NCBI RefSeq assembly: GCF_015840715.1
Contig: NZ_CP060397.1
Coordinates: forward strand, 992,001 to 1,056,000
Source of the DNA: Synechococcus sp. CBW1004
GTDB lineage: Bacteria; Cyanobacteriota; Cyanobacteriia; PCC-6307; Cyanobiaceae
Direction of reading: 5' to 3'
DNA length: 64,000 bases
The first letter of the stretch is position 1. Each line of letters starts with the position of its first letter. Below the pieces are notes generated by a model. It searched no databases and was not told where the DNA came from. It saw nothing but the letters and a program-made list of their open reading frames with translations. The translations under genes were made by a program, and so were the position numbers. This document shows, piece after piece, positions 5,875 to 16,031 of the stretch.

Positions 5875-6942
5875 GTGACCCGGAGGATCTGGCTCACGAT
5901 CGCTGCCGTGGCCGGCATGTCCCTGGTGGCAGGGCTGGCCGTGCGTCAACTCGGGCAGCGCCGTGCGCCCTCCTTCGCCAGCGGCAACGGCCGCCTGGAG
6001 GCCATGGATGTCGATGTGGCCGCCCACGCCGCCGGCCGCCTGGCGCAGGTGGACGTGCGGGAAGGCGATCGGGTGCGGGCCGGTCAGATCGTCGCCCGCA
6101 TGGACGCGGCCGCCCTGACCGCCGACCTGCACCAGGCCCAGGCGGAGCTGGCCCAGGCCGAGGCCGCCATCGCCAGTGCCCGCAGCCTGCTGCGTCAGCG
6201 CCTGAGTGAGGAGCGGGAGACCCGCAGCACCATTGACGAGCGCCTGGCCGAGCTGCGCCTGGCGGAACGCCGTTTCCAGCGCTCCCGCTCGCTGCTGGCC
6301 AGCGGCGCCATCACCCAGGAGAGCTTCGATGCCGATGAGGCCAGGCGACTGACCGCCCAGGCCTCGTTGACCAGGGCCCGCGACGCCGCCCGATCCGCCG
6401 GAGCCGTGATCGCCTCGGCCCGATCCGGGCTCCAGGCCGCCGAGGCCTCCAGGGCTTCCGCCCTGGCCCGCATCGAGCGGATTCAGGCCGACCGGAACGA
6501 AACCCTCCTGCGCGCCCCCACCGATGGGCGGGTGCAGATCCGCATCGCCGAACCGGGGGAGACCCTGCCGACCGGCGGCAAGGTGCTCAACCTGCTGGAT
6601 CTCAGCGATGTGTTCATGACCTTCTATCTGCCCGCCGGTGAGGCCGGCCGCCTCCAGCTGGGCAGTGAGGCGCGCCTGATCCTGGATGCGGCACCCGAGC
6701 TGGTGATCCCGGCACGGGTCACCTACGTGGCGAGCGCGGCCCAGTTCACCCCCAAGACCGTGGAAACCCGCTCCGAACGACAGACGCTGATGTTCCGGAT
6801 CAAGGCCAGCGTCGAACCGGCTCTGGTGCGGCGCTACGAGCGGGGCGCCAAGATCGGCATGCCTGGCGTCGCCTGGGTGCGGCTGGACCCTGCCGTGCCC
6901 TGGCCCCGGCGGCTGCAGGTGAAGCTGCCACCCCCGCCATGA
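5875..6942 (+). CDS. HlyD/YhiI-type membrane fusion protein
   Basis: The protein has 355 residues, the same as E. coli YhiI. It has an N-terminal membrane anchor (about 6-24), a split lipoyl/barrel-sandwich domain (ending with RAPTDGRVQIRIAEPGE) and a long coiled-coil hairpin around 80-200 rich in Ala, Arg and Glu. It is a periplasmic adaptor that joins an ABC-2 type exporter to the outer membrane. Translation probably begins at GTG 5875. Its stop overlaps the ATG of the following rbbA-type gene (ATGA), and the three genes keep the E. coli order yhiI-rbbA-yhhJ. Confidence 0.88.
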   Translation: MTRRIWLTIAAVAGMSLVAGLAVRQLGQRRAPSFASGNGRLEAMDVDVAAHAAGRLAQVDVREGDRVRAGQIVARMDAAALTADLHQAQAELAQAEAAIASARSLLRQRLSEERETRSTIDERLAELRLAERRFQRSRSLLASGAITQESFDADEARRLTAQASLTRARDAARSAGAVIASARSGLQAAEASRASALARIERIQADRNETLLRAPTDGRVQIRIAEPGETLPTGGKVLNLLDLSDVFMTFYLPAGEAGRLQLGSEARLILDAAPELVIPARVTYVASAAQFTPKTVETRSERQTLMFRIKASVEPALVRRYERGAKIGMPGVAWVRLDPAVPWPRRLQVKLPPPP

Positions 6943-9242
6943 GCCTCGCCCTGCAGGCCACCGGATTGCGGCTGCGCTATGGCACCGTCACGGCCCTCGC
7001 CGCCATCGATCTGCAGGTGCCGACCGGCAGCTTCCTGGGGTTGATCGGACCCGATGGCGTCGGCAAATCGAGCCTGCTGGCCCTGATCGCCGGCTCTCGG
7101 CGGCTGCAGGGGGGGCAGCTGCAGGTGCTCGGCGCCGACATGGCCGATCCGGCGGCGCGCCGGCGGGTGAGCCCGCGCCTGGCCTATCTGCCCCAGGGCC
7201 TCGGCCGCAACCTCTACCCCAGCCTCACGGTGCGCGAAAGCATCGATGGCTTCGCGGGACTGTTCGGTGTGGCGCCCCACGACCTGCGGCGGCGGCGGGC
7301 GGCGCTGCTGGACGCGGTCGGGCTGGCTCCCTTCGCGCAGCGGCTCGCCGGCCAGCTCTCCGGGGGGATGAAACAGAAGCTGGGCCTGTGCTGCGCCCTA
7401 ATTCACGACCCGGATCTGCTGCTGCTCGATGAACCCACCAGTGGCGTGGACCCACTCTCGAGGCGGCAGTTCTGGCAGCTGATCGGCGCGATCCGGCGCG
7501 AGCGGCCCCAGCTCACCGTGCTGGCAGCCAGTGCCGATCTCCAGGAAGCCGCCGGCTTCGAGCGGCTGGCGGTGCTCGACGCAGGACGTCTGCTGGCGGC
7601 TGGCTCGCCGGAGGAGCTGCTGCAACAAACGGGAACGACCAGCCTGGAGCAGGCCTTCGTGGCGCTGCTGCCTGCGGAACAGCGGGCCCGCCATCAGCCG
7701 GTGACCCTCCCCGAACCCCTGGCCCAGGCCACGGAGGTGGTGATCGAGGCCCGCGGACTGACCCGCCGTTTCGATGGCTTCACGGCGGTCGATGGGGTGG
7801 ATCTGGCGATCCGTCGCGGTGAGATCTTCGGCTTCCTCGGCTCCAACGGCTGCGGCAAGACCACCACCATGAAGATGCTCACGGGCCTTCTGCCGCCGAC
7901 CGCCGGTGCGGCCCTGCTGCTGTCCAGGCCGGTGCAGCCGCAGGATCTGTCGACCCGCCGCCGGGTGGGCTACATGGCCCAGAGCTTTTCGCTCTATCAG
8001 GAGCTGACCGTGCGGCAGAACCTGCGGCTGCATGGCCAGCTGTTCGGTGTTCCGGGGGTGGAACTGCAACGCCGGACGGATGCGCTGATAAGGCGCTTCG
8101 GCCTGGAGGCCGTCGCCGAGCGGCTGCCGGACGCCCTGCCGCTCGGCCTGCGCCAGCGGCTCTCCCTGGCCGTGGCCCTGATCCACCGGCCGGAGGTGCT
8201 GATCCTCGATGAGCCGACGGCCGGCGTGGATCCGATCGCCCGCGATGCCTTCTGGAACGAGCTGATCCGCCTCTCCCGCCAGGAGCGGGTGACGATCTTT
8301 CTGTCGACCCACACGATTGCGGAGGCGGCGCGCTGTGACCACGTGGCGTTGATGCATGCCGGACGGGTGCTCACGACGGCCCCGCCGCAGGAGCTGATCG
8401 CTCAGCGCGGCTGCCGCACGCTGGAGCAGGCCTTCATCGCCATCCTCGACGAGGTGGCTCCGCAGCCCATCCCACCTGAGGCGGTGGACTGGCTGGGGCC
8501 GCCGGCCGCCACACAGCCGGCTCCCGCGCCCTTCCGTGTGCGGCGCCTGGGCTGGACCGCCCGCCGGGAGGTGCTGGAACTGCGCCGCGATCCGCTGCGC
8601 GCCGTTCTCGCCCTGGTGGGCAGCGTCGTGCTGATGGTGGTGATGGGAACCGGCATCAGCTTCGATGTGGAACACCTGCCCTTCGCGGTGCTCGATCGCG
8701 ATCAGAGCAGCCTGAGTCGCGATTACATCAGCGGCATCGCCGCATCGCGCTACTTCCGCCTGCAAGCCCCGATCACCTCCCCCGCTGAGCTGGATCGCCG
8801 TCTGGCCAGCGGCCGGCTGAGCCTGGCGCTGGAGATTCCGCCCCATTTCGCCCGCTCCGTCAAACGCGGCGATCCGGTGAGCCTGGGCATCTGGCTCGAT
8901 GGGGCCATGCCCCAGCGGGCGGAGACGGCGCGCAGCAGCTTCGAAGGTCTGCACAGCCAGTGGCTGAAGGAGCAGCGTTCGCTGGGCCTCTTTCCCCGGG
9001 AGAGCCTGTCCGCCGTACCCGCCGGGGCCATCCCCGTGGAGACCCGCTTTCTCTACAACCCCGATCTGCGCAGCATCACGGCGATGGTGCCCTCGGTGAT
9101 CCCGCTGCTGCTGATGCTGATCCCGGCGATGCTCACCAGCCTCTCGGTGGTGCGTGAGAAGGAACTGGGCTCCCAGGTGAACCTCACCGTGACCCCGCTG
9201 ACCCGGCTGGAATACCTGCTCGGCAAACAGCTCCCCTACCTA

Positions 9243-11003
9243 GGGCCTGCTGAGAATCCCAGACCCACTGCCCCGCAGTTGATTCCAACAGGAATCTCAT
9301 GATAGGATGGCCTGTAATCAGCCATTCCTGGCTTAGAAGAACCTGCTGACACGCAAATGTACGTTTTTCAGCACACCGGTCAGCTGTCGATTGAGGAGTT
9401 TCACTCGCCCTTTGGCGGGAAGCTCGATCCCAACAACCGCTGGGTTCTGCTCCACAAGTTGATTCCGTGGATTCAACTGGAAAGCCACTACGCGCCCCAG
9501 TTCAGCGCCAAGACAGGAGCCCCAGCCAAGCCCTTCCAGATGGCGTTCGGTGCGCTCTACATCCAACGACGATTGGGAGTGACGGATCGAGAGACGGTGG
9601 AGCTGATCACGGAATCACCCTATCTGCAATTTTTCATTGGCTTGAGCGGTTACCAGCCCCTGCCGCCGTTTGACGCCTCCATGATGGTGCACTTTCGCAA
9701 GCGAATTGGCCCTGAGCTGATCAAGGTCTGCAATGCTATGACCAAGGCCAACGGGATCGCAATGATTCAGGAGATGCTCGCTACTTGCGAGCAGGAAGAC
9801 GGCATGACTGCAGAGGATCACAAGCAGCTTGCGGCCATTGAGGAAGAGCTGGGGGTGAAGCCAGCATCGCTCGATCCTGGCAGCAACTGGGGAACTCTGA
9901 TCCTTGATGCAACCTGCGTGCCTGATGACATCCCCTACCCAGTGGACTTGAGGCTGCTTGCTGAGTCCCGGGACACAACGGAGAAGGTCATTGACGAGTT
10001 GTTCAAGCAGTTACAGGGCAAGATTCCCCGCAAGCCGCGCTGCAATAGCGTAAAAGCTCATAACCTATTCCTGGTTATCATCAAAAAGAAAAAGCCAAGC
10101 CGTGAGGAGATCCGGGAGGCGAAACGCTTCCAGCTCAACGAGATCAGCCGTAATCTCAGAGCAATTGACGGCATGATCTATTGCGGTGCAGAGCTTTCGG
10201 GGCTTGGTTCACAGCTGTACCGCAAGCTGCTGATCGCCAGTGAAGTCGCCCGGCAGCAACAGGAGATGTATAACGCTGACAGCCGGCGCATCGATGACAG
10301 GATCGTGAATCTGATGAAGCCACATGTAAGACCGATCGTGCGAGGCAAGGCGGGCAAGAAAACCGAGTTCGGGGCCAAGATTTCAATTTCTGATGACAAT
10401 GGCTTTGTCGATGTGGATCGGATCAGCTGGGACAACTACAATGAAGCCAACGATCTGATCACACGTGCCGAGCAATACAAGGAAGAGCGAGGATACTACC
10501 CGGCCCGGATCTGTGCCGATTCAATCTATATGACATCTGGAAGCAAGAAGTTCTGTGAGGCTAATAAAATCAGACTCAGCGGCCGCCCACGCAAGAAGCA
10601 GGTCGAAGCCGAGGTGCAGACAGCAGAGCAGCAAGAGCTGTTCAAATCAGACATGAGAAAGCGTTCCGTGATCGAGGGAAGAATCGGGACGGGCAAGCGG
10701 AAATACGGACTGGATCGAATCCTAACCAAGTTGGTTGAAACATCAAGAACAGTGATCACGATGGTGTTCTTTGTCATGAATGTCGAGAAGATCATGAGGC
10801 TACTGCGCCTCTTGTTCGCTATTTTTGTCTCTGTGTACATCCTGATGCTTGGTTTGTGCACTGTCCGGTGCCGTCCAGCGCTTCTGTGGGCTGCTTAGTC
10901 AGCTTCCAGGAGTAAAACTGCGGTCACCACTGCTCGGGCGTGCGGGCCGAGAGATCCGCCTTTGACGCGCCGGAAAAGCCCACAATCGAAATTCAGCAAG
11001 CTC
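9243..11003 (+). mobile_element. Complete 1.76-kb IS (IS5/IS1182-like) inside rbbA
   Basis: The element is 1761 bp, bounded by imperfect inverted repeats (GGGCCTGCTGAGAAT at the left; the right end reads GAGCTTGCTGAATTT in complement) and flanked by the 6-bp duplication TACCTA (9237-9242 and 11004-11009). It carries one full-length transposase. Base composition is clearly lower in GC than the flanking rbbA, which suggests recent arrival. It is related to, but well diverged from, the element at 30997-32763. Confidence 0.95.
9357..10898 (+). CDS. DDE transposase of the 1.76-kb IS
   Basis: The 513-residue protein starts MYVFQHTGQLSIEEF and has an N-terminal DUF772-like helical domain (about 40-140). 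A DDE core follows with LDATCVPDD (first Asp), CADSIYM (second Asp) and VIEGRIGTGKRKYGLD (Glu), and a hydrophobic Leu-rich tail. It is colinear with the 516-residue transposase at 31098-32648, and the motifs correspond, but many residues differ. The frame is intact, so this copy may still be mobile. ATG 9357 lies 114 bases inside the left end. Confidence 0.93.
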   Translation: MYVFQHTGQLSIEEFHSPFGGKLDPNNRWVLLHKLIPWIQLESHYAPQFSAKTGAPAKPFQMAFGALYIQRRLGVTDRETVELITESPYLQFFIGLSGYQPLPPFDASMMVHFRKRIGPELIKVCNAMTKANGIAMIQEMLATCEQEDGMTAEDHKQLAAIEEELGVKPASLDPGSNWGTLILDATCVPDDIPYPVDLRLLAESRDTTEKVIDELFKQLQGKIPRKPRCNSVKAHNLFLVIIKKKKPSREEIREAKRFQLNEISRNLRAIDGMIYCGAELSGLGSQLYRKLLIASEVARQQQEMYNADSRRIDDRIVNLMKPHVRPIVRGKAGKKTEFGAKISISDDNGFVDVDRISWDNYNEANDLITRAEQYKEERGYYPARICADSIYMTSGSKKFCEANKIRLSGRPRKKQVEAEVQTAEQQELFKSDMRKRSVIEGRIGTGKRKYGLDRILTKLVETSRTVITMVFFVMNVEKIMRLLRLLFAIFVSVYILMLGLCTVRCRPALLWAA

Positions 11004-11440
11004 TACCTAGTGCTGGGGCTGGCCAATGTCGTGCTGCTGGCCGCTGTGGCGACGATCGCGCTGGGAGTCCCCCTGCGCGGCAGTCCGATCGCCGCTGGCC
11101 TGGGGGCCCTGCTCTATGTGAACGCGGCCACGGCGTTCGGAATGCTGATCTCCGCCTTCCTCGGCAGCCAGCTCGCCGCGATCTTCGGCACCACCCTGCT
11201 GACGGTGTTACCGGCCATCTCCTTCTCCGGTCTGATCGATCCGGTCAATTCGCTCACCGGACTGGGGGCGTTCATCGGCCGCATCTATCCCACCAGCCAC
11301 TTCCTGATTCTCTGTCAGGGGGTGTTCAACAAGGGGCTGGCTCTGGTGGATCTGCTGCCGCCACTGCTGCCGCTGCTGATCGCCGGGCCCGTGCTTCAGG
11401 CCCTGGCGGTGCTGGCTCTGCCCCGGCAGGAGCGTTGACG

Positions 11441-13307: not shown

Positions 13308-13913
13308 TCAGCGCGCCAGCAGTCCGAGCGGACCGAGGGCCGCAACCCCGCCGCCGCAGGCGAGGAGCAGGGCCACACTCCGGGTCCAGGCCAGGGGCAG
13401 GCGCCGCAGCACCAGGGCGCTGCCGCCGCTCACCAGCAGCGAACCGGCGAACGCTCCCAGCCACCACAGCGCCGCCGAACCGTCACTGGGGGCCTCGAGG
13501 CCGTGCAGCATGGCGTGAACAGCCACCGCCCCGGCCACCAGGCCGCCGCAGGCGCCCAGCCGGGGACTCCGGCGCGAGCGGAGGCAGCCCAGCACCAGCA
13601 CCGCCACGGCTGTGACGGCCAGGGCTGCGAGGAGCTCCTGGCCCGGCAACGTGCCGCCCACCGCCCCGAAGAGCCCGCCGCCGATGGCACCGGCCACCGC
13701 CCAGAGCAGAAGCTGGGAGGAGATGCAGGAGGCTGCGGCCCCCACGCCGATCAGCAACAGCAGATGGTCGACGCCGCCGATCGGATGCAGAAAGCCCGAG
13801 ACGATGCCGCCCTGGGCGATGCCGTGGGCCTGGGCGGGTTGATCCAGCAACAGCGCCAGCGCTGCCGCGCCGCCGCACAGAGCCAGGGTTCTGGCCGGGA
13901 AGCTCTGAGTCAT
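13308..13913 (-). CDS. HupE/UreJ-type metal permease, probably cobalt
   Basis: The 201-residue protein starts with a hydrophobic leader ending in AQAHG and carries the family signature HPIGGVDHLLLLIGVG, with about six membrane segments. HupE/UreJ proteins move nickel or cobalt. A cobalamin riboswitch lies directly upstream on the same strand, which argues for cobalt uptake for vitamin B12-type cofactors rather than nickel for hydrogenase or urease. ATG 13913 is about 35 bases after the riboswitch. No hydrogenase or urease gene is in the window. Confidence 0.88.
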   Translation of the reverse strand: MTQSFPARTLALCGGAAALALLLDQPAQAHGIAQGGIVSGFLHPIGGVDHLLLLIGVGAAASCISSQLLLWAVAGAIGGGLFGAVGGTLPGQELLAALAVTAVAVLVLGCLRSRRSPRLGACGGLVAGAVAVHAMLHGLEAPSDGSAALWWLGAFAGSLLVSGGSALVLRRLPLAWTRSVALLLACGGGVAALGPLGLLAR

Positions 13914-13947
13914 CGAAAGAACCGGTCCGCGCCGGGGATGAAGGGGT

Positions 13948-14085
13948 TGGGCACGGCGAGCGTTCTGACTGAGGGAGCGTGGCCCCGATCACAGCTGCGG
14001 GACAGTGCCGGACTCGACTCAGGAGATCCCTGAACCCCACCGGACTTTCCTCGTTGCCTCCAGGGAGTGACCCGCTGGAACCGTG
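13948..14085 (-). ncRNA. Cobalamin riboswitch upstream of hupE
   Basis: Read on the minus strand, the leader contains in order the expected conserved blocks. These are GGAAAGTCCGGTG, then CACTGTCCCGC followed by AGCTGTGATCGGGG, and finally the B12-box-like CAGTCAGAACGCTCGCC at 13953-13972. Order and spacing match the cobalamin (AdoCbl class) aptamer core. It ends about 35 bases before the hupE start, so ligand binding could hide the ribosome site or end transcription. The 5' limit (about 14085) is estimated from the paired GGTTCC region. Confidence 0.82.
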
Positions 14086-14151
14086 GCCTCCATTGTGAGC
14101 CCGGAGGGCATGGGGAGCACGCCGGCAGGGACAGGAACGCAGGGCCCATCC

Positions 14152-14580
14152 CTAGCGGGGATGCTCGGAGCAGGGCATCCAGAGGGAACCCATGGCATGG
14201 GCACCACTGCAGCCCGCTTTTCGGGCCTGTTCCAGCGCTTCCTCACGGGTGGGGTATGCCATCAGATGGGGCGGCAATCGAGCCGGGGAGCTGGGGTGGT
14301 GGTGCTGATGCAGGGCGCCGGCCGGAGCACCCAGGCGCCGAGGCCCCATCCCCTCGACGCCGGCCCACCACACCCCCATCACGTTCACGCCGGCGACCAG
14401 CACGCCCATCCCCACCACACAGGCGTTGAGAACACCCATCCCCACCACGCCGAGGCTCACCACCCCCATCGGCACCACACCGATGCTCACCACTCCCATC
14501 GGCACGATGCCGATCGAGATGATGCCCAGGGGAGCCACGCCGAAGGCGATGAACCTGGGCTTGTCGCCGCATTGGGCCAT
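14152..14580 (-). CDS. Membrane protein of hydrophobic pentads with a DUF3721 tail
   Basis: The 142-residue protein begins MAQCGDKPRFIAFGV. From about residue 14 to 78 it consists of some 13 tandem pentads of the form [P/S/G]-[M/I/L]-G-V-[V/I], for example PMGVV and SIGVV. Around residues 85-105 is a His-rich hinge (HQHHH). The C-terminal 35 residues form a DUF3721 unit with CSGAHAMGSLWMPCSEH. It lies 14 bases after a second DUF3721 gene on the same strand. The His cluster and the Cys/His tail suggest metal binding, but no function is known to me. Confidence 0.8.
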   Translation of the reverse strand: MAQCGDKPRFIAFGVAPLGIISIGIVPMGVVSIGVVPMGVVSLGVVGMGVLNACVVGMGVLVAGVNVMGVWWAGVEGMGPRRLGAPAGALHQHHHPSSPARLPPHLMAYPTREEALEQARKAGCSGAHAMGSLWMPCSEHPR

Positions 14581-14594
14581 GGATGGGCTCGGGC

Positions 14595-14846
14595 TCAGTG
14601 GGACGGCGAGGCGCCGTGGACGTCGCTGTGCTCGGCACAGGGCATCCACTGGTTGCCCATCCTGTGGGCGCCTGTGCAGTTGAAGTGAAGCCTGGCGGCC
14701 TTCTCCGCTTCGGCCTGTGTGGCATAGAGAGCGGGCACAGCACCGGCCCCGGTGGCGGGAGCGGCGAGAGCGGAGGCGGAGAGCAGCAGGTTGACGCCGG
14801 AGACAGCCGCCGTCCGGGGGATCCACGGACGGAAAGGGAGCGACAT
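14595..14846 (-). CDS. Secreted DUF3721 protein
   Basis: The 83-residue protein has a signal peptide (basic start, hydrophobic NLLLSASALAAPA with a plausible cut after ALAA). A single DUF3721 unit follows: AEAEKAARLHFNCTGAHRMGNQWMPCAEH. The two Cys and two His of the motif are the same as in the neighbouring pentad protein. It is probably periplasmic and co-transcribed with that gene. DUF3721 is a cyanobacterial domain of unknown role; the arrangement of Cys and His would suit a metal site. Confidence 0.82.
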   Translation of the reverse strand: MSLPFRPWIPRTAAVSGVNLLLSASALAAPATGAGAVPALYATQAEAEKAARLHFNCTGAHRMGNQWMPCAEHSDVHGASPSH

Positions 14847-14897
14847 GGGACGGAGGGCAGGCGCCGGGGATCGGGCGGGCGTTGACCCTACCTAAGG

Positions 14898-14924
14898 CCT
14901 CCACAACAGCGCGAGCAGTGGAGG
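14898..14924. promoter_or_regulatory. Inverted repeat between DUF3721 genes and merR
   Basis: CCTCCAC (14898-14904) and GTGGAGG (14918-14924) form a 7-bp inverted repeat with a 13-base gap, between the divergent DUF3721 operon and the merR gene. MerR-family dimers bind this kind of dyad within the promoter they control, so this is a candidate operator for the adjacent regulator. No supporting copy of the repeat was found elsewhere in the window. Confidence 0.35.
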
Positions 14925-14999: not shown

Positions 15000-15410
15000 A
15001 TGGCCCGGCAGGGATCGCTGTCACCGATGCCCGCCCCCAGCCTGCGCATCGGTGAGGTGGCCAGGCGCACCGGCCTGTCGGTGAAGACGATTCGCTTCTA
15101 CTGCGATGCGGGACTGCTCGAGCCCAGGGAACGCTCGGAGGCTGGTTACCGCCTGTTCGATCAGGAGAATCTCGCTGAGCTCGCGATCATCCGTGCCCTC
15201 CGCGCGATGGATGTGTCCATCCCTGAGCTGGCGAGAATCCTGGAGGTGCGTCGCTCCGGCCTGTGCAATTGCTCGGTGCTGAAAGACAGCATCACGGCCA
15301 AGATGGCCTCGATCGACCAGCGGATCTCCGAGCTCAGCGCCATGAAGGACGAGCTGGCGCGTCTCCTGGACAGCTGGCAGGACTGTGGAGGAGCCAGGGC
15401 CGATCGCTGA
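15000..15410 (+). CDS. MerR-family regulator, probably metal-responsive
   Basis: The protein has up to 136 residues. A MerR winged-helix domain (LRIGEVARRTGLSVKTIRFYCDAGLL) is followed by GYRLF, a dimerisation helix and a C-terminal segment with CNC and a later Cys in DCGG. Cys residues at these positions mark the metal-sensing group (CueR, ZntR, CadR, CoaR types). The start is either ATG 15000 or ATG 15027; the second gives a leader closer to family length. It is divergent from the DUF3721 pair and near hupE, so it may sense a metal for those genes. The metal cannot be named from sequence. Confidence 0.85.
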   Translation: MARQGSLSPMPAPSLRIGEVARRTGLSVKTIRFYCDAGLLEPRERSEAGYRLFDQENLAELAIIRALRAMDVSIPELARILEVRRSGLCNCSVLKDSITAKMASIDQRISELSAMKDELARLLDSWQDCGGARADR

Positions 15411-15593: not shown

Positions 15594-16031
15594 ATGGCTC
15601 ATCCCACACCCCCCCTGGATCCGGAGACGCTCAACCTGGGGCCCAGGCAGCTGTCCCTGCTGCAGGTGCTGCGTCAGGCCGAGGCGGAACTGAGCGGTCA
15701 GGAGCTGCATCAACGGCTCCGGGAGGAGAAGGCGCGCTCCGGACTGGCCACCGTCTACCGGAACCTGCGGCAGCTGCAGTGTGCGGGGCTGGTGCGCTGC
15801 CGCAAGCTGCCCAACGGGGAGAGCGTCTACGCCCCCGTCGACCGCGATGACCATCACCTCACCTGCGTGAGCTGCGGCCACAGCGAACCGTTGCCGATCT
15901 GTCCGGTGGGGAGAAATGGCCTTGGGCTGAATGCGGTGCAGCTCCACGGCTTCAAGCCCCTGTTCCATACGTTCGAGGTGCATGGTCTCTGCCCCTCCTG
16001 TCAGCAGCACGCGCCATCGGGTCACGACTGA
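15594..16031 (+). CDS. Fur-family metal regulator (Zur/PerR-like)
   Basis: The 145-residue protein has the Fur winged helix (GLATVYRNLRQLQCAGLV) and the dimerisation/metal part with HHLTCVSCGHSEPLPIC. The C-terminal CPSC completes a structural zinc site made by two CxxC pairs. The residues fit a Fur, Zur or PerR protein; the short HH cluster and the lack of an HHDH stretch make Zur at least as likely as Fur. ATG 15594 is chosen because homologous proteins begin shortly before the LGPRQ helix. A GC-poor stretch GAAAATGGTTTCC about 40 bases upstream might be its own box, but the symmetry is weak. Confidence 0.85.
   Translation: MAHPTPPLDPETLNLGPRQLSLLQVLRQAEAELSGQELHQRLREEKARSGLATVYRNLRQLQCAGLVRCRKLPNGESVYAPVDRDDHHLTCVSCGHSEPLPICPVGRNGLGLNAVQLHGFKPLFHTFEVHGLCPSCQQHAPSGHD

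Follow-up and report, generated by a model that had tools for sequence, protein, structure and literature searches.

A conserved pair of DUF3721 genes with a methionine-rich decapeptide repeat, a candidate metal-handling system of picocyanobacteria

Picocyanobacteria carry much of the ocean's photosynthesis and have to keep copper, zinc, iron and cobalt in balance, for which few parts are known. Two adjacent small genes in the window, the 64,000-nucleotide stretch of Synechococcus sp. CBW1004 DNA that was analysed, raise the question of whether they are such a part and which metal they would serve. An earlier note, made from the letters of the window, had read them as an undescribed metal-handling or copper/cobalt buffering system. 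According to the present analysis the pair probably handles metal of some kind, a broad claim on which several lines of evidence agree. The narrower reading, a metal buffer or chaperone with a pentad scaffold most likely of the Cu(I) type and with local metal regulators, is about evenly poised, and copper as the metal of the pentad domain falls slightly short of that. The Cu(I) claim is based on ligand chemistry and on the neighbours of standalone relatives.

The coordinates of the features are given in Table 1. The two genes lie on the minus strand with 14 bases between the upstream DUF3721 gene and the fusion gene, and both proteins matched PF12518 over the whole model with 56.1 and 55.6 bits against the curated cut-off of 27, in agreement with the earlier description of two adjacent DUF3721 genes. 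The upstream protein of 83 aa, which had been called secreted, was seen by eye to begin with a signal-peptide-like stretch, and a lipobox-like Cys was noted by eye in several of its relatives. The fusion protein had no evident signal peptide. Its order is pentad region, His cluster and C-terminal DUF3721 unit; the His cluster noticed before, HQHHH, lies in the linker, where clusters of this type vary among the relatives. No match to the pair was found in the phages and plasmids searched, and 36 stretches of viral contigs matched the pattern but none was confirmed; a phage or plasmid origin of the pair was therefore rejected. Elsewhere in the window, an ABC transporter/permease frame (6939-11438, plus strand) is apparently broken by a transposase-like ORF (9357-10898), as judged by eye from the ORF list.

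Table 1. Features of the DUF3721 locus and its surroundings (positions of the window).
Feature	Positions	Strand	Basis
HupE/UreJ permease	13308..13913	-	PF04955 51.1 bits
Cobalamin riboswitch upstream of HupE	13938..14100	-	RF00174 47.1 bits
Pentad-DUF3721 fusion gene, 142 aa	14152..14580	-	PF12518 and PF01744 matches
DUF3721 unit of the fusion protein	14158..14256	-	alignment of 50 sequences
Linker His cluster HQHHH of the fusion protein, residues 91-95	14296..14310	-	sequence
Pentad (decapeptide) region, residues 11-80	14341..14550	-	Met28/38/48/58/68/78; GLTT repeat PF01744 40.7 bits
Secreted-looking DUF3721 gene, 83 aa	14595..14846	-	PF12518 55.6 bits
DUF3721 unit of the secreted protein	14625..14726	-	alignment of 14 sequences
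TAGGGT box beside the dyad	14885-14890	-	layout shared with relatives
Dyad CCTCCAC-N13-GTGGAGG, shared intergenic region	14898..14924		same layout in 13 relatives
MerR-family regulator, divergent from the pair	15000..15410	+	PF13411 65.2 bits
Zur-type Fur-family regulator	15594..16031	+	PF01475; best solved relative 7ne9

The earlier proposal presupposed that the pentad protein is conserved in relatives, and the fusion was found at 79 of the best 80 of 411 related loci, a selection that leans to the window's relatives; L067 was the one that failed the pentad pattern. At 65 of these 80 the upstream DUF3721 was detected by pattern, and at L039, L065 and L109 it was missed by the pattern but detected by profile. 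The loci are mostly from Cyanobium, Synechococcus, Vulcanococcus and Prochlorococcus. In the phylum sample of 386 genomes, the window's family, assumed to be the one that holds the Synechococcus, Cyanobium and Prochlorococcus loci, had DUF3721 in 56 of its 57 genomes, and the 329 other genomes had it in 0. The second family sample (41 genomes, one per genus, two from the window's genus) had it in 35 genomes, including 19 of the 23 better ones, with 60 DUF3721 loci of which 31, in 27 genomes, were close pairs when the 'GAF'-type pairs are included. The pentad-only profile detected 91 of the 386 phylum genomes, 55 of 57 within the family and 36 of 329 outside. Because these 36 outside genomes carry pentads and none of the 329 showed DUF3721, the distribution of the pentad domain extends beyond that of the pair. 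A second pentad profile with the standalone rows added detected 94 of 338 class genomes. In three genomes of 1.7-1.8 Mb (G114, G348, G292), the fusion gene is directly followed by an extra pentad-only ORF of 74-92 aa. One locus, L106, was from a record titled Gammaproteobacteria MAG but shares its neighbours with marine Synechococcus loci; it is probably mis-binned.

In the pentad region of the window protein, Gly occupies 13 of the 14 register positions (14, 19 ... 79) and Met is found at residues 28, 38, 48, 58, 68 and 78. When residues 11-80 were shuffled 100,000 times, 0 shuffles equalled the Gly or the Met register. Residues 11-70 contain no charged residue and have a mean Kyte-Doolittle value of 2.0. 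The 13 pentads counted earlier hold as a register count, since the strict pentad pattern fits only some of them and the relaxed pattern gives 9. The repeat is a decapeptide rather than a pentad, roughly V-[PASG]-[M/H]-G-V-V-S-I-G-V. The dN/dS of the pentad half was 0.06, 0.13 and 0.06 against three relatives (84 codons), which looks like purifying selection.

The row of Met residues was followed in an alignment of 63 fused sequences, left from 100 after thinning at 88% identity, and 40 unthinned standalone pentad proteins. At positions 28, 38, 48, 58 and 68, Met or His was found in all 514 non-gap cells and Leu, Ile or Val in none. His accounted for 59 of the 514 cells, all of them at positions 28 and 38 of standalone proteins. 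The patterns of the fusion scan required PMG, which favours Met28 and Met38; however, positions 48, 58 and 68, demanded by no search pattern, were Met in 308 of 308 cells, and all five positions were Met in 15 fused sequences retrieved via DUF3721 and not via the PMG pattern. Position 18 was Leu in 61 and Gln in 2 of the fusions; 27 of 38 standalone proteins had His there. Of the alternate pentad centres, 43 was occupied by I, L, F or V, 53 and 63 by many residues, and positions 23 and 33 nearly always by Ile in the fusions and by I, V, L, F or M in the standalone proteins. Val26, Val40 and Val46 were without variation in the fusions, and Val56, present in 102 of the 103 aligned proteins, was almost as constant as the Met row. 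As several Val and Ile positions are about equally constant, constancy alone is no argument for Met as a ligand. The usual replacement of Met within a hydrophobic repeat is Leu or Ile; His was the sole substitute where these were expected, therefore the Met row reads as a ligand row. Judged from the aligned residues, the Met/His exchange would be typical of a ligand, and the combination of Met with His suits Cu(I). The exchange is the distinctive feature of the domain, yet it is limited to standalone proteins.

C57, H61, M63, W67, M68, C70 and H73 of the secreted protein's DUF3721 unit were invariant in 14 aligned sequences. Over 50 aligned fusions, C124, H128, M130, W134, M135, C137 and H140 were invariant, and so were C4, P8, the Met at 28/38/48/58/68 and most of the Gly register; part of this invariance was imposed by the search patterns, the fused extraction pattern itself demanding Cys, an [AV]P.G turn and a W-x-x-C stretch. 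GAF-type paralogues without the His keep both Cys. The genome of the window has a second DUF3721 tandem of this type at 363960-364362 on the minus strand (L003/L130), in which both proteins look secreted and GAF replaces GAH, and pairs resembling it in spacing and score were observed in G402, G413 and G411. The DUF3721 unit of the fusion (residues 111-140) was modelled as a helix plus hairpin with a block mean pLDDT of 79-90. Both window proteins are members of PF12518, for which Pfam states no function. The two genes represent a conserved family of small proteins, apparently undescribed, that probably handle metal; no paper under DUF3721 or PF12518 was found in the open-licence literature, and none under slr1425, which we guess to be the Synechocystis homologue.

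The structure prediction suggested for the pentad region gave short, regularly spaced strands, at low confidence. The two AlphaFold models, made from 16 and 50 sequences, had mean pLDDT values of 56 and 60, respectively, and both placed strands of about 6-8 residues at a period of about 10 residues with most turns at P-M-G. With the first model, VIA gave a top Z of 6.5, which is within the tool's noise level, and its rows comprised contractile-injection, phage baseplate or spike proteins, OspA and others. Foldseek of the second low-confidence model against the PDB gave no match at E 0.001 or better. A solenoid, a roll, a flat sheet and membrane insertion are all candidate arrangements of the modelled domain.

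Among described repeats, the GLTT repeat PF01744 scored 40.7 bits in the fusion protein (curated cut-off 21) and was above the cut-off in five standalone relatives. The five-residue period with Gly is common to this family and the window protein; however, the PF01744 model is short (28 positions) and has neither the Met/His row nor a His tail, and Pfam states no function. Pentapeptide repeat proteins, whose fold is beta-type with a five-residue period, resemble the pentad domain in this period and in the beta-type prediction. The window protein did not match Pentapeptide_2 (PF01469) at E up to 1, and the best of five relatives reached 17.8 bits, below the curated cut-off of 26.4.

Among metal proteins, CusF is described in passages of PMC7558416 as holding Cu(I) by one His, two Met and a Trp. 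The aligned DUF3721 units keep these residue types without variation as well, but homology to CusF was not found. Cu(I) has been proposed to travel along a row of Met in CusA (passages of PMC7558416 and PMC12292863), and this methionine ladder resembles the pentad Met row in idea, again with no homology found. CusF and CopM, given there as a beta-barrel and a helical bundle, respectively, have Met, His and Trp ligand sets akin to the candidate ligands of the window pair. A sequence search of the PDB gave no match below E 0.8 to solved structures, including CusF/CopM-type chaperones. BmtA/SmtA metallothioneins are small metal-storage proteins of similar organisms (parts of PMC9337993 and PMC8374608); the fusion protein differs from them with four Cys in 142 residues, too few to count as Cys-rich like a metallothionein, and its ligands would be Met and His.

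The standalone pentad proteins (n=40) are mostly about 100-130 aa long, and 33 of them have at least three His in the last 30 residues; those from the window's own family (L181-L183) have none there. Of the 44 genomes with standalone pentads, 7 have a BlaI-family gene within 5 kb of the pentad gene versus 0.10 expected, and in three (G215, G536, G324) it lies within 200 bases; at L176 it is followed by a peptidase-type gene. BlaI was present in 38 of the 44 genomes, exactly once in 34 of these. The link amounts to about three separate arrangements (f23, f12, f5/f15), because related genomes repeat each other. A BlaI/BlaR-type PetR and the protease PetP form the copper-dependent plastocyanin/cytochrome c6 switch described in parts of PMC7896320 and PMC12292863, and the BlaI neighbours may be PetR. 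CopC, which 7 of the 44 genomes have, lay within 1 kb of the standalone pentads in 3 genomes of a single genus. Further neighbours were a cytochrome c gene, DUF1775 and CopC-CopD (L178), DUF411, a multicopper oxidase and an HMA P-type ATPase (L177), a P-type ATPase (L179), an RND pump (L174), and a cytochrome c gene with HupE (L183); yet other standalone loci had no comparable genes nearby. P-type metal ATPases were weakly enriched within 5 kb, in at least 3 of 44 genomes versus 0.39 expected, counted as same-contig candidates picked by eye among the matches listed. By eye, no Fur-family gene was seen within 10 kb of the standalone pentads of the 44 genomes among the matches listed, the expected values being 0.39 for a distance of 5 kb and 0.76 for one of 10 kb. 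At four standalone loci (L187, L188, L196, L203), which also have BlaI nearby, a gene for a PepSY-TM membrane protein, assigned by Pfam on the L187 copy, lies directly upstream of the pentad gene.

The neighbours of the window pair itself lean to zinc or cobalt and not to copper. The divergent MerR-type gene and the cobalamin-controlled permease pointed out earlier were both recovered (Table 1). In an alignment with CueR, the MerR has C89 and C91, with C91 opposite Ser77. Presumably a Cys at this position marks a sensor of divalent ions and not of Cu(I), and by this rule a divalent ion is favoured. The best NCBIfam match of the MerR was CueR with 80.1 of 147.4 bits, and no NCBIfam equivalog cut-off was reached. 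A copper-sensing role of the window MerR was rejected on this low CueR score and the loop Cys. In the usable intergenic regions of the window and of 13 of the 18 relatives tried, two arms 15 bases apart are followed after 8 bases by TAGG[GC]T; the arms were CTCCA/TGGAG in 8 of the 14, and one base in one arm differed in the other 6. Since the dyad has a fixed layout in MerR-DUF3721 intergenic regions, the MerR likely controls the pair through it. From its location between the pair and HupE, the riboswitch is placed to control HupE and not the pair, and co-regulation of the two by the riboswitch was ruled out by this position.

The Fur-family gene next to the MerR appears, by its sequence, to resemble cyanobacterial Zur more closely than Fur or PerR. 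Its best solved relative was 7ne9 with E 3.3e-37, the next one having 7.7e-16. SYNW2401 is given in parts of PMC9337993 as a zinc sensor with a crystal structure, and 7ne9 is probably this Zur, as the code and the account of the structure occur in the same source; the Zur regulon of WH8102 is reported there to comprise eight genes. The earlier proposal also presupposed a genomic link between DUF3721 and metal regulators. A divergent MerR was found at 19 and a Fur-family gene within 3.5 kb at 14 of the best 80 of 411 loci. In the second family sample, a Fur-family gene lay within 5 kb of 12 of 60 DUF3721 loci (0.64 expected), and among the 31 close pairs 7 had such a neighbour (0.35 expected); two weak Fur rows of G404, a genome without DUF3721, were excluded and genome sizes rounded. 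By sequence, this neighbour was Zur-like at L075, L082, L091, L115, L116, L118 and more loci, at several of them accompanied by a ZnuA relative, and Fur-like at L081, L084, L093, L101 and L105; a group of marine-type loci has Fur and not Zur. In some loci Fur is directly downstream, and at a few of these it is followed by DHOR and imelysin. Many loci have no evident metal gene nearby. The first cluster of the neighbour grouping had taken in reverse-strand ORFs; the neighbour families relied on were checked by Pfam or BLAST, bar a few named by eye, and the gene calls in these surveys were a crude choice of the longest ORF. Taken together, the fused-form neighbours (Zur, ZnuA, Fur, a divalent-type MerR) favour zinc, iron or a divalent ion over copper.

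Metal handling, as proposed in the earlier note, is thus well supported by context. The part on cobalt has HupE as its one pointer, with the riboswitch misplaced for the pair. For the pentad domain, copper is a good guess on new grounds, the Met/His exchange and the copper-type neighbours of standalone proteins, whereas the window MerR suggests a divalent ion. A tentative proposal, which we consider possible though doubtful, is that the domain is an undescribed metal-binding scaffold, a self-stacking decapeptide beta repeat with one Met/His per repeat that would form a linear Cu(I) ladder, serving throughout the cyanobacteria as an internal copper store or conduit in the plastocyanin/cytochrome c6 economy and joined in picocyanobacteria of marine and fresh waters to DUF3721 ports on either side of the membrane. 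In the preferred reading, the secreted DUF3721 protein would be periplasmic and in some relatives probably lipid-anchored; its partner without an evident signal peptide would contribute the repeat domain, often a His-rich linker, and the second DUF3721. Stacking of the repeats would align the Met/His residues, one per ten, into a ladder most likely holding Cu(I) or a similar soft ion, which the mobile His stretch may load or unload. The helix-hairpin of DUF3721 with its Cys, His, Met and Trp would be the likely metal port on either side of the membrane, one outer and one inner, with the repeat as a store or conduit. In the window's family the pair would be run by local metal regulators, here by MerR on the shared dyad. 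For the fused form, zinc or cobalt is the alternative. The copper and the zinc/cobalt signals could be reconciled if the fused form had changed its metal or guards against mis-metallation. The ligand row is amenable to point changes.

Weighed against the copper ladder, a buffer for a divalent metal (Zn, or Co/Ni) under Zur or a divalent-sensing MerR, with the Met row as core packing only, is the less likely reading but a serious one. It agrees with the Zur-type genes that occur by the pair in several arrangements, some with ZnuA, with the Zur-type gene adjoining MerR in the window, with Cys91 at the place of CueR Ser77 and with HupE and its cobalamin riboswitch next door. In addition, parts of PMC8374608 describe Prochlorococcus MIT9312 and NATL2A as lacking metallothionein and state their zinc defence to be unknown. 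The five-position Met row, kept with His as its sole substitute, counts against this buffer because Met is a poor ligand of Zn or Co, and the copper-type genes beside standalone relatives and the Fur, not Zur, of the marine-type group also disagree with it.

A structural or membrane-embedded repeat, a scaffold for assembly or an anchor at the surface or in the membrane, placing DUF3721 with metal neighbours that are incidental or related to DUF3721 only, would account for the 60 charge-free residues of high hydropathy, for the regular beta-type repeat in both low-confidence models and for the Val and Ile positions that are as constant as Met. It is improbable in view of the absence of Leu, Ile and Val from the 514 Met/His cells, of the His-rich tails in standalone proteins without DUF3721, and of the BlaI link of the standalone genes. 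A thiol/redox role, in which a periplasmic DUF3721 disulfide would act and the pair would serve iron or oxidative stress, is very improbable: His128, Met130, Trp134, Met135 and His140 were as invariant as Cys in the aligned fusions, although both Cys are retained in the GAF-type paralogues without the His and the Fur, DHOR and imelysin neighbours would fit such a role. The Cu(I)-type buffer with local metal regulators is accordingly kept as the preferred reading.

Two further genes were seen beside the fused pair. At 12 loci (L081, L084, L086, L093-L095, L097, L101, L102, L105, L106, L112), the pentad gene has upstream of it a radical SAM/DUF3641 gene, assigned by Pfam on the L097 copy and presumably ArsS of arsenosugar synthesis. 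At seven loci (L077, L087-L090, L092, L100), an ORF just downstream of the fusion gene encodes a conserved peptide of about 65 aa that looks secreted and carries CGGGGSGSYRKP (L090 copy) and HQHQQ.
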